A stretch of 46,601 nucleotides of DNA from Verrucomicrobiales bacterium. GTDB taxonomy: Bacteria; Verrucomicrobiota; Verrucomicrobiia; Limisphaerales; UBA1100. A program made the translations under genes and the position numbers. The notes under the pieces were generated by a model. That model saw only the letters and a program-made list of their open reading frames with translations. It had not been told where the DNA came from and searched no databases. The stretch covers positions 1 through 46,601 of the forward strand of contig SYLI01000077.1 of NCBI GenBank assembly GCA_005809105.1, read 5' to 3'. Of this stretch, positions 43,808 to 46,601 are shown in pieces. The number at the start of each line of letters is the position of its first letter. Position 1 is the stretch's first letter.

Positions 43808-45166
43808 ATGCCTAGCGTGTACATCAAGACCTACGGCTGCCAGATGAACGAGCGCGACAGCGAAGCCGTCGCCGCGCAATTGGTCGCCAAGGGCTACACA
43901 CTCGCCACCGGCGAGGGCTCGGCCGATGTCGTGCTGATCAACACCTGCAGCGTGCGCGACACCGCGGAGCAAAAGGCTCTGGGAAAAATGGAAACCCTCG
44001 CCGGCACCCTGCGGGATCGGCGGCCTGCTGTGGTGCTGGGGTTCATGGGGTGCATGGCTCAGAGCCGGGGGCGCGAGTTGATGGATCGCGTGCCCGACGT
44101 GGATCTGGTGCTGGGCACGCAGAAGTTTCACCGCGCGGGCGAGCTGCTTGAGGAGCTGCTCTCCGGACGCCGCAGCAAAGTGGTGGAGACCGCCGCCGAA
44201 CCCCGCAGCGAGGCGTCCATTCGCGAGCATCTCATGCCGGAAAGTGGTGGGGCGCGGTCGGTGTCGGCGTTCGTCAGCATCATGCAAGGCTGCAACCAGC
44301 ACTGCACCTTCTGCATCGTGCCGCACACGCGCGGCGCAGAGCGCAGCCGCACCATCGAGGAGGTTGTGGACGAATGCCGAGAGCTGGCTGCCCGAGGCGT
44401 GAAGGAAGTGACGCTCCTCGGCCAGATCGTGACGAGCTACGGCCGCCGCGAGATTCCCGCACGCGATGGGCGTTCGGGGTTCGTCCAGCTGCTGGACGCC
44501 GTGCACGCGGTTGAAGGCATCGAAAGAATACGGTTCACCTCGCCGCATCCCAAGGGTTATGGGCCCGATCTCGTGGAGGCGTTTGCGCGCCTGCCCAAAT
44601 TGATGGAAAGCGCACACGTGCCCGTGCAAAGCGGCAGCGATCGCGTGCTGCGGCTCATGCACCGCGGTTATACGCGCTCGCGTTTTGTCGAACTGGCCAC
44701 CCAGCTTCGTGCGGCTCAGCCGGGCATGGGGCTGACCACCGACATCATCGTGGGATTTCCTGGAGAGTCGGAGGAGGATTTTGCTGAGACGCTCTCGCTT
44801 TACCGCGAGGTGGAGTTTGACAACGCCTTCATCTTTAAATACAGCCCGCGCCGCGACACGCCCGCGGCCACCATGCCCTGCCCGGTGCCGGCCGAGGTGA
44901 TTGATGAGCGTCACGCCCGGCTCTTGTCGCTGTGCGATGAGGTGCGCAAACGCAAGCTTGGCGCGATGGTGGGCCGCCGTGTGGAAATCCTCGTGGAAGG
45001 TGCGAGCCGCAGGAATCATTCAAGAATGCAGGGCCGCACGCGGTGCAATAACATTGTCGTATTTGAAGGCAGCCCTCGCCACAAGGGGCAGGTGATGGAC
45101 GTTCGCGTCACTGCGGCCACCCTCACCACGCTCTACGCCGACCCCGCGATCCACAACCCAGACTGA
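43808..45166 (+). CDS. miaB: tRNA-2-methylthio-N6-isopentenyladenosine synthase MiaB
   Basis: 452 residues from ATG 43808 (MPSVYIKTYGCQMNERDSE). Adds the methylthio group at A37 of UNN-decoding tRNAs using two [4Fe-4S] clusters and SAM. The UPF0004 cluster cysteines are Cys11 (TYGCQMN), NTCSVRD and GFMGCMAQ. The radical SAM triad is CNQHCTFCIVPHTRGAERSR. It continues with EVTLLGQIVTSYG, PVQSGSDRVLRLMHRGYTR, TDIIVGFPGESEEDF, and a TRAM domain (about 385-445, VEILVEGASRRNHSRMQGRTRCN). LGQIVTSY reads where LGQNVNSY is usual. Confidence 0.95.
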   Translation: MPSVYIKTYGCQMNERDSEAVAAQLVAKGYTLATGEGSADVVLINTCSVRDTAEQKALGKMETLAGTLRDRRPAVVLGFMGCMAQSRGRELMDRVPDVDLVLGTQKFHRAGELLEELLSGRRSKVVETAAEPRSEASIREHLMPESGGARSVSAFVSIMQGCNQHCTFCIVPHTRGAERSRTIEEVVDECRELAARGVKEVTLLGQIVTSYGRREIPARDGRSGFVQLLDAVHAVEGIERIRFTSPHPKGYGPDLVEAFARLPKLMESAHVPVQSGSDRVLRLMHRGYTRSRFVELATQLRAAQPGMGLTTDIIVGFPGESEEDFAETLSLYREVEFDNAFIFKYSPRRDTPAATMPCPVPAEVIDERHARLLSLCDEVRKRKLGAMVGRRVEILVEGASRRNHSRMQGRTRCNNIVVFEGSPRHKGQVMDVRVTAATLTTLYADPAIHNPD

Positions 45167-45168
45167 CC

Positions 45169-45741
45169 ATGCCCATTGTCGACGTCGCCACATTGTCGCT
45201 GTTGCTCGGGCTCTTGATCTGCCTGCCACAGGTGTACGGCTTGTGGAAGCCCGCCACCATGGGCGAATTTGCCCGACGGCTGCCGCGTTCCGAACCGGCT
45301 GGCTACATCCTGATGGCGGCTGCCACCGCCTGGTTTCTCATGGTGTTGCACCATGAGAATCTTGCGGACTTCGACCCCTACAAGACCAAGCTGAAGGTGG
45401 CCTTCGCACTGGTGGGCGTGGGGGCGTGCATCTACCTGCGCGACTTTCTAGCCGTGCGTGGCCTTGCGGTGTTGTTGCTGCTGCTTGCCAAGCTCGTGGT
45501 GGACAACGCACGGCACGCGGAGAGCGCGTGGCGCATGGTGCCCGTGGGGATTGCCTACGCGTGGATCGTAAAGGGGATGATTCTCACCGTCTCGCCATGG
45601 CGTTGCCGTGACCTCATCGAATGGGCCTTTGCCTCCGAGCGCCGCATCCGGCTGCTCTGCGCAGTGCGGCTGGTGATTGGCCTGCTGTTGGTGTTGCTGG
45701 GCTTGACGGTGTTCCGGTCGCCCGTGGTGGCCGGGCAATAG
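45169..45741 (+). CDS. Polytopic membrane protein of unknown function
   Basis: 190 residues starting two bases after the miaB stop. Hydrophobic segments at about 5-24 (VATLSLLLGLLICLPQVYGLW), 46-62, 74-90, 95-113, 122-140 and 160-183, so five or six membrane helices. Loops carry HHENLADFDPYKTKLK and SPWRCRDLIEWAFASERRIR. I recognise no family; related proteins appear to exist in Verrucomicrobia but I cannot name them. Cotranscription with miaB is likely from spacing. Confidence 0.7.
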   Translation: MPIVDVATLSLLLGLLICLPQVYGLWKPATMGEFARRLPRSEPAGYILMAAATAWFLMVLHHENLADFDPYKTKLKVAFALVGVGACIYLRDFLAVRGLAVLLLLLAKLVVDNARHAESAWRMVPVGIAYAWIVKGMILTVSPWRCRDLIEWAFASERRIRLLCAVRLVIGLLLVLLGLTVFRSPVVAGQ

Positions 45742-45804: not shown

Positions 45805-46601
45805 CTACTTGGGCTGGCCCCTTTCGGTCAACAGCCTGTGGAGCTGTTGCACCGCCTGCCGCAGTTCCTGCACCTCGGCACGGAGCCTCTGGATTTCCGA
45901 GCCTTGGTCGTGGCCTTCGCGCTGTCCGGGGGCGTTTGCCAGATGATGCTCCAAGCGCGCGCGGAGTTCCTTTTCCATGCGTGCGGCCTGTTCGTGATGT
46001 CCCGACTCGCGCAGCTTCTGGATGGCGGCCTTGACCTGCTCTAGCTGCGCGCCGCCGGGATGTGGCTCGGCAAACTTGCGGCCTTCTGCCCCGGCTCGCG
46101 CCTGATGATGTTGCAAGGCGGCCTTGAGCTTTTGCAACAACGCTTCGGCTTGTTCATTGTGCCCGGCCTTGCGCAGCTCCTGAATCTGCCGTTCCTGCTG
46201 TTCGGCCCAGGCTCGCAGGTCGCTCTTGGCGCCTTCGTGGCCTCCCTTCACAGGTTTGTCGCCTTCCCGGTGGGCTTTCGCACGGTACGCGGCAATCTGC
46301 TTTTCAAGCTCTTGAGCGACCTTATGCGCTGCGTCTTTTTCTCCGCGCTCGTTTAAGGAAGCGATTTCTGCCCGGCGCGATTGAACCCATTCCTCAAACT
46401 TCCGGTCGGTTCCCTCACGCGGCTGATCCTTCTCACCCTTCACTCCCGGGCGGGCTTCCTTGTCACCCTTGCTGTCAGGGCGGCCCTTGTCGCCTTTGCC
46501 TTCGGGTGTGCCTTTGTCACCCTTGCCGTCAGGGCGGCCCTTGTCGCCTTTGCCTTCGGGTGTGCCTTTGTCACCCTTGCCGTCAGGGCGGCCCTTGTCG
46601 C
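45805..46601 (-). CDS. Repeat-rich helical protein with KGD-rich N-terminal tract (partial)
   Basis: The frame is open from the window edge to the stop at 45805; the GTG at 46443 is internal, so the true start lies outside. The visible protein (about 265 residues) begins with a Lys/Gly/Asp repeat (GDKGRPDGK GDKGTPEGK) of 18 residues. Three helical repeats follow, at about 46398-46280, 46218-46090 and 46045-45940, each with an 'ExL..xG....A...' core: AEIASLNERGEKDAAHKVAQ, RQIQELRKAGHNEQAEALLQ, AAIQKLRESGHHEQAARMEK. The last segment (IQRLRAEVQELRQAVQQL) is coiled coil. Very polar, His/Glu/Gln/Lys-rich, no membrane segment seen. Family not recognised; similar repeats occur in PVC-group secreted proteins. 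Confidence 0.75.
   Translation of the reverse strand, partial: DKGRPDGKGDKGTPEGKGDKGRPDGKGDKGTPEGKGDKGRPDSKGDKEARPGVKGEKDQPREGTDRKFEEWVQSRRAEIASLNERGEKDAAHKVAQELEKQIAAYRAKAHREGDKPVKGGHEGAKSDLRAWAEQQERQIQELRKAGHNEQAEALLQKLKAALQHHQARAGAEGRKFAEPHPGGAQLEQVKAAIQKLRESGHHEQAARMEKELRARLEHHLANAPGQREGHDQGSEIQRLRAEVQELRQAVQQLHRLLTERGQPK
46467..46601. repeat. 54-bp tandem repeat within the right-edge gene
   Basis: Copies begin at 46467, 46521 and 46575; the third is cut by the window end. Copies 1 and 2 differ at one visible position (GCTGTC versus GCCGTC). Each unit codes for 18 residues, itself a doubled nine-residue unit (GDKGRPDGK / GDKGTPEGK). The near identity implies recent expansion or gene conversion. 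The copy number beyond the edge is unknown. Confidence 0.9.

Follow-up and report, generated by a model that had tools for sequence, protein, structure and literature searches.

The closest described systems are the amino-acid tandem-repeat (aaTR) proteins of archaeal Borg elements, in which in-frame arrays produce disordered and often charge-balanced tracts, are enriched in extracellular proteins, and collapse or end contigs (PMC9879509). Periscope proteins are surface proteins with variable, near-identical tandem repeats that fold individually, make rods and are unresolved by short reads (PMC9704523). The gene analyzed here resembles the Borg proteins in its in-frame, charge-balanced arrays, their predicted disorder and the position of an array at a contig end, but it is chromosomal and bacterial and occupies a fixed slot; its hairpins and coiled coil are conserved and its arrays lineage-specific (PMC9879509). 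With the Periscope proteins it shares tandem repeats that are nearly identical, in a protein that is probably exported, and an unassembled array, whereas its 18-residue KGD units, mostly at pLDDT < 50, are predicted not to be individually folding domains (PMC9704523). The family works partly like the Borg aaTR proteins and is not assigned to the Periscope class. The repetitive tract is rich in Gly, Lys, Asp and Pro as in bacterial collagen-like proteins, but lacks Gly at every third residue (PMC8968730). A further comparison is with tetratricopeptide (TPR) and related alpha-solenoid repeats (PMC8635915, PMC11514114). The hairpins share with these the helix-turn-helix build, and their turn, G-x-x-(E/D)-x-A, is TPR-like; their helices are longer, sit isolated on linkers and stay below Pfam cut-offs.

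The window is the whole stretch of DNA analyzed, 46,601 nucleotides, and equals the entire contig C65 of a genome of 2.99 Mb in 106 contigs. The C-terminal half of the gene lies at one end of it, next to two genes that mark the slot:

43811..45166, + strand: miaB, slot marker (TIGR01574, 475.3 bits against a cut-off of 355.3)
45169..45741, + strand: TM190, a convergent 190-aa membrane-like neighbor, slot marker outside the protein
45805..46599, - strand: 264 codons of the gene's C-terminal part, the 5' end open where the contig stops
45817..45903, - strand: C-terminal helix, residues 233-261, whose heptad pattern suggests a coiled coil (AlphaFold2; alignments)
45937..46059, - strand: helical hairpin 3 (h3), residues 181-221, hallmark of the wider family (AlphaFold2; alignment A6)
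46075..46233, - strand: helical hairpin 2 (h2), residues 123-175 (AlphaFold2; shuffle tests)
46264..46416, - strand: helical hairpin 1 (h1), residues 62-112 (AlphaFold2; shuffle tests)
46460..46601, - strand: 54-bp array encoding the Gly/Lys/Asp (KGD) tract, predicted disordered (TRF; pLDDT mostly < 50)

An earlier note on this DNA had described an 18-residue repeat encoded by near-identical 54-bp units, and TRF bears this out with 2.6 copies of a 54-bp unit at 98% matches (score 277), alongside an alternative reading as 5.3 copies of a 27-bp unit at 75% matches. The encoded sequence, (GDKGRPDGK GDKGTPEGK)n, refines the description, the 18-residue unit being a doubled 9-mer. The composition, rich in Gly, Lys, Asp and Pro, would suit a bacterial collagen-like protein whose stalk is triple-helical, and the NCBIfam model adhesin_Lcl matches the N-terminal part described below at E 0.0035, with 15.9 bits against a cut-off of 500. 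Glycine spacing in the tract is 4-2-3, however, with a longest Gly-X-Y run of 2 triplets, just as the earlier note had said of a collagen-like composition lacking strict phase, and the linkers of the orthologues that were read have other compositions. As glycine does not recur at every third residue over the repeat region, we rejected a collagen-like protein, a reading that we regard as extremely improbable.

Beyond the array, AlphaFold2 places helices at residues 62-85/88-112, 123-145/148-175, 181-198/202-221 and 233-261, while residues 1-61 are mostly at pLDDT < 50; with a pTM of only 0.27, the model does not fix how the modules are arranged. The hairpins resemble one another beyond composition, most strongly h2 and h3 (z 11.4, 0/1000 shuffles as high), followed by h1 and h2 (z 4.7, 1/1000) and by h1 and h3 (z 3.1, 16/1000). 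Three helical repeats followed by a coiled coil, as originally proposed, thus stand within the window on the model and the shuffle tests, but the whole gene is four-fold, with a fourth hairpin on another contig.

That contig is C103: in the gene's own genome the 54-bp array is confined to the ends of C65 and C103. The earlier note had advised extending the contig in search of the true start and a signal peptide, and a likely start and a signal-like sequence were located there:

C103:26044-26502 (= L003:1294-1752): likely N-terminal part of the gene, with an ATG at L003:1294 (C103:26044)

This part runs from the signal-like sequence through one hairpin into 4.7 copies of the 54-bp array, which reach the contig end. 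Its hairpin resembles h2 (z 4.8); its similarity to h1 is weak (z 2.1) and that to h3 is not significant (z 0.8, 206/1000 shuffles as high). A GT9 glycosyltransferase (87.7 bits, cut-off 22) divergently adjoins the gene on C103, and on the C65 side lie convergent TM190 and then miaB. In four relatives (L036, L044, L049, L094) a single ORF fills the slot in the order MiaB, TM190, gene, GT9, so the split between C65 and C103 is best read as an assembly break; tested for a position between TM190 and GT9 on the strand opposite TM190, the own genome agrees with the orientation in these four, its flanks lying on separate contigs. Of the frame break or assembly collapse at the repeats that the earlier note had envisaged, an assembly break is found, whereas the frame is intact on either side of it.

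The alternative is that the ORFs on C65 and C103 are two genes, unrelated paralogues with a common array. Counting against the proposed C65–C103 join, the C103 part matches six other orthologues at only z 2.1 to 5.3, where the C65 part matches seven at z 7.2 to 16.0. Both halves nevertheless match one orthologue, L049, to which the C103 part without its signal scores z 11.9 and with which it shares NLYAPD; the slot order recurs in the four relatives; and the C-terminal part has no second copy in its own genome at E 0.1. We consider two genes very unlikely, and on these sequence comparisons the two parts are best read as one gene split by assembly at the repeats. The whole protein would have about 370 residues (153 + 264 - 47) if the C103 array already contains all of the C65 array, and would otherwise be longer.

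A seven-row profile (A3, threshold E 1e-6) finds the gene in 12/20 genomes of the same family and in 31/293 genomes of the order, own genome included in the family count. The remaining 8/20 family genomes have no match at that threshold, among them the sole other genome of the genus (G009), which has a match to neither the gene nor TM190. In three genomes (G014, G015, G016) TM190 abuts GT9 with gaps of 41-45 bp, and the slot gene is therefore dispensable. A TM190 profile scan of genome_contigs gave 194 relatives, mostly labelled as MAGs of Verrucomicrobia, Limisphaerales and Pedosphaera, and the best 80 were taken further. In 52 of these best 80 of 194, TM190 is followed by a GT9 match, with a gap between the two matches of 6-191 bp in 41 cases, of 244-598 bp in another 5 and of 680-1358 bp in the other 6. 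The profile detects the slot gene in 8 of the best 80, namely the 6 with gaps of 680-1358 bp together with L042 and L055, which are without GT9 in the stretch examined. A MiaB+TM190 tree was built from the 56 of 81 rows in which enough of each protein is present; its 9 occupied rows take 3 changes against 8.5 in shuffles, and occupancy may reflect one gain and two losses. TM190 itself matches nothing in Pfam or NCBIfam above cut-off. Five of the relatives (L042, L082, L090, L094, L105) are labelled Akkermansia muciniphila; three of them (L042, L094, L105) group among Limisphaerales/Pedosphaera rows on the tree, and the Akkermansia labels look wrong. At L112:5680-6210 (-) the slot gene is broken, its frame ending just after an 18-bp array, and at L064:5850-6767 (-) it lies in two ORF pieces; each may be an assembly error or a real loss.

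Seventeen slot stretches were scanned for tandem arrays, and different lineages carry different ones:

Own genome (G000), both contig ends: 54/27-bp KGD array
L036: 42/24/18-bp KPREGERD-type array
L064 and L007: 24-bp array
L044 and L007: 15-bp GEREH-type array
L094: 30/15-bp KEGVKKEGGN array
L033, L112 and L133: 18-bp HHGDRE-type array
L049: weak 12-bp array
L044:5549-6587: 156-bp duplication, 2.1 copies, 89%, a hairpin with its linker

The 156-bp tandem duplication means that hairpins too, besides linkers, multiply by DNA duplication. No array was found in 6/17 stretches (L042, L043, L121, L127, L128, L129). All 31/31 TRF rows have a period divisible by 3, although the rows overlap and are not independent, and an array meets a contig end or N-run in G000, G018 (L133) and G012 (L033). 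Length may also vary between strains, as the earlier note had suggested; orthologues of different species, a between-species comparison, span 205 to 353 aa with different arrays. Linkers differ between lineages, whereas the hairpins and coiled coil are kept, and models of the window part and of L042 show the same module order (pTM 0.27 and 0.23). Seven linkers picked by eye have charged fractions of 0.41-0.76 and net charge per residue of -0.08 to 0.07.

An expressed but nearly dispensable orphan under low constraint, with repeats that are neutral slippage, would explain why the gene is lost in some relatives, why its arrays change fast, and why the frame breaks in L112 and falls into two pieces in L064. 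Yet dN/dS is 0.12-0.32 in 9 pairs from two groups, measured over alignable codons with linker alignment uncertain, and the hallmark domain persists in 50/293 genomes of the order. The alignable codons are under purifying selection, and we judge the low-constraint reading decidedly unlikely; selection maintains this protein, whose helical modules are conserved and whose linkers are replaceable. Function could instead reside in the linkers, if charged or His-rich tracts bound ions or matrix as part of a metal, mineral or polysaccharide binder and the hairpins were scaffolding. His-rich linkers do occur in L112, L033 and L137/L197, and the metal-binding protein SmbP (3u8v) gives a weak profile match (E 0.051); but the KGD tract is without His, the window has Gln where the hallmark hairpin has a conserved His, and linker sequence is not conserved, which makes such a binder quite improbable.

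The wider family was followed with profile A6, built from 17 rows over 89 positions of the last hairpin and C-terminal coiled coil, window row included, and applied at E 1e-5 to genome samples drawn evenly from larger groups. The L132 protein, run as a single query over the phylum, found 3/387 genomes at E 1e-8 and missed the own genome; the profile was used instead. A6 matches 50/293 genomes in the order and 7/387 in the phylum, own genome counted in both, and matches that genome at E 2.5e-21, the window row being part of the profile. There is one match each in 49/50 and 7/7 of these, a count in which second copies may be missed, a limited number of candidates being scored per genome; the matches in G015 and G016 fall inside frames of 760 and 816 codons and could be coiled coils matched by chance. 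By our own rule a signal-like N terminus is present in 38/42 family members against 25/84 neighboring ORFs, the latter unchecked as genes. Arrays are mildly enriched in the wider family (12/42 vs 9/84, p 0.013), with 16/19 periods divisible by 3 and 3/19 not. In family f21 (L197:5205-6566, - strand, and also L137), a 454-aa exported-looking protein carries a 180-bp repeat in 2.9 copies (TRF score 923), in which a hairpin and a His/Asp-rich linker are amplified as one unit.

The earlier suggestion that the architecture fits no common family agrees with the Pfam and NCBIfam scans, in which neither the window part, the C103 part nor any further member scanned reaches a cut-off; in NCBIfam, ten members gave sub-cut-off coiled-coil-type matches only. 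The window part has no match among solved structures at E 1, and profile matches there are to designed helical proteins, coiled coils and similar. Fold comparison of the window model reaches at best Z 7.4, to other helical proteins, with TPR chains at Z <= 5.0, a level common for helical models; the method is uninformative for helices and leaves room for families beyond those listed. The TPR consensus has a turn like G-x-x-(E/D)-x-A, and the hairpins could be divergent tetratricopeptide-type units of an adaptor binding peptides or proteins, with incidental linkers. TPR_2 matches the C103 part below threshold (E 0.022), TPR_10 does so in 3/7 members (best E 0.00011), and profile matches extend to designed PPR proteins (E 3.2e-5). 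All TPR matches nonetheless lie under the gathering score (best 22.5 bits vs 27.5; C103 part 15.3 vs 27), ten other members show none at E 0.01, and helices of 18-28 residues set on linkers contrast with contiguous 34-residue units. We rejected TPR membership, as neither the C103 part nor the members scanned reach the Pfam gathering score, and regard an adaptor of this type as improbable.

Clustering of the ORFs around 42 loci of the wider family gave no partner gene conserved across them: the shared named neighbors, MiaB, TM190 and a transporter-like ORF (named by eye), are restricted to families f1 and f8, and four further neighbor clusters span at least two families. At L161 and L163, listed with L191 and L193 (family f87), the gene stands beside sulfatase-like ORFs (by eye). 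A plasmid or phage origin was rejected: the window part matches none of 72,556 plasmid records, TM190 as query has no relative in viral contigs, and in PHROGs neither the window part nor L042 has a match at E 0.01. The L132 protein matched a tail tape-measure family in PHROGs at 3.8e-8, taken as a generic coiled coil. We found no description of the hairpin-protein family in open-licence papers. The family may resemble planctomycete proteins.

The explanation we favor, tentatively and at slightly less than an even chance, is a single exported protein, at least about 370 residues long, that oligomerizes by a coiled coil and whose hairpins are spaced by disordered, repeat-driven linkers. The gene would be cut between C65 and C103 because the 54-bp array was not assembled through. 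Its product would begin with a signal-peptide-like sequence and a hairpin, continue through a long Gly/Lys/Asp linker that may arise by in-frame tandem duplication, and carry three hairpins on short linkers before the C-terminal coiled coil. From this anatomy we infer that the protein is exported and that it would oligomerize through the coiled coil, with the hairpins as small units for packing or binding, separated by linkers predicted to be disordered and charge-balanced. Through DNA duplication the linkers would rapidly change length and sequence, staying rich in charge and nearly neutral overall, and the protein may act as a flexible spacer or scaffold, either in the envelope or in the extracellular matrix.

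The protein, unnamed and from a group of Verrucomicrobiota, is probably exported, and as a family it is a modest new one, otherwise of familiar type, a hairpin protein with charged repeats. Possible, though on balance unlikely, is a stronger reading, that of an undescribed exported family of Verrucomicrobiota whose lineages rebuild their linkers from unrelated in-frame arrays, with spacer length tuned quickly, perhaps within populations, and selection keeping only charge richness and balance. When an assembly splits repeat genes of this sort, each half can be recorded as a fragment, and the family goes without a name. Kept modules and replaced linkers in the same chromosomal slot are a natural test of whether selection acts on linker length, on charge, or on nothing.
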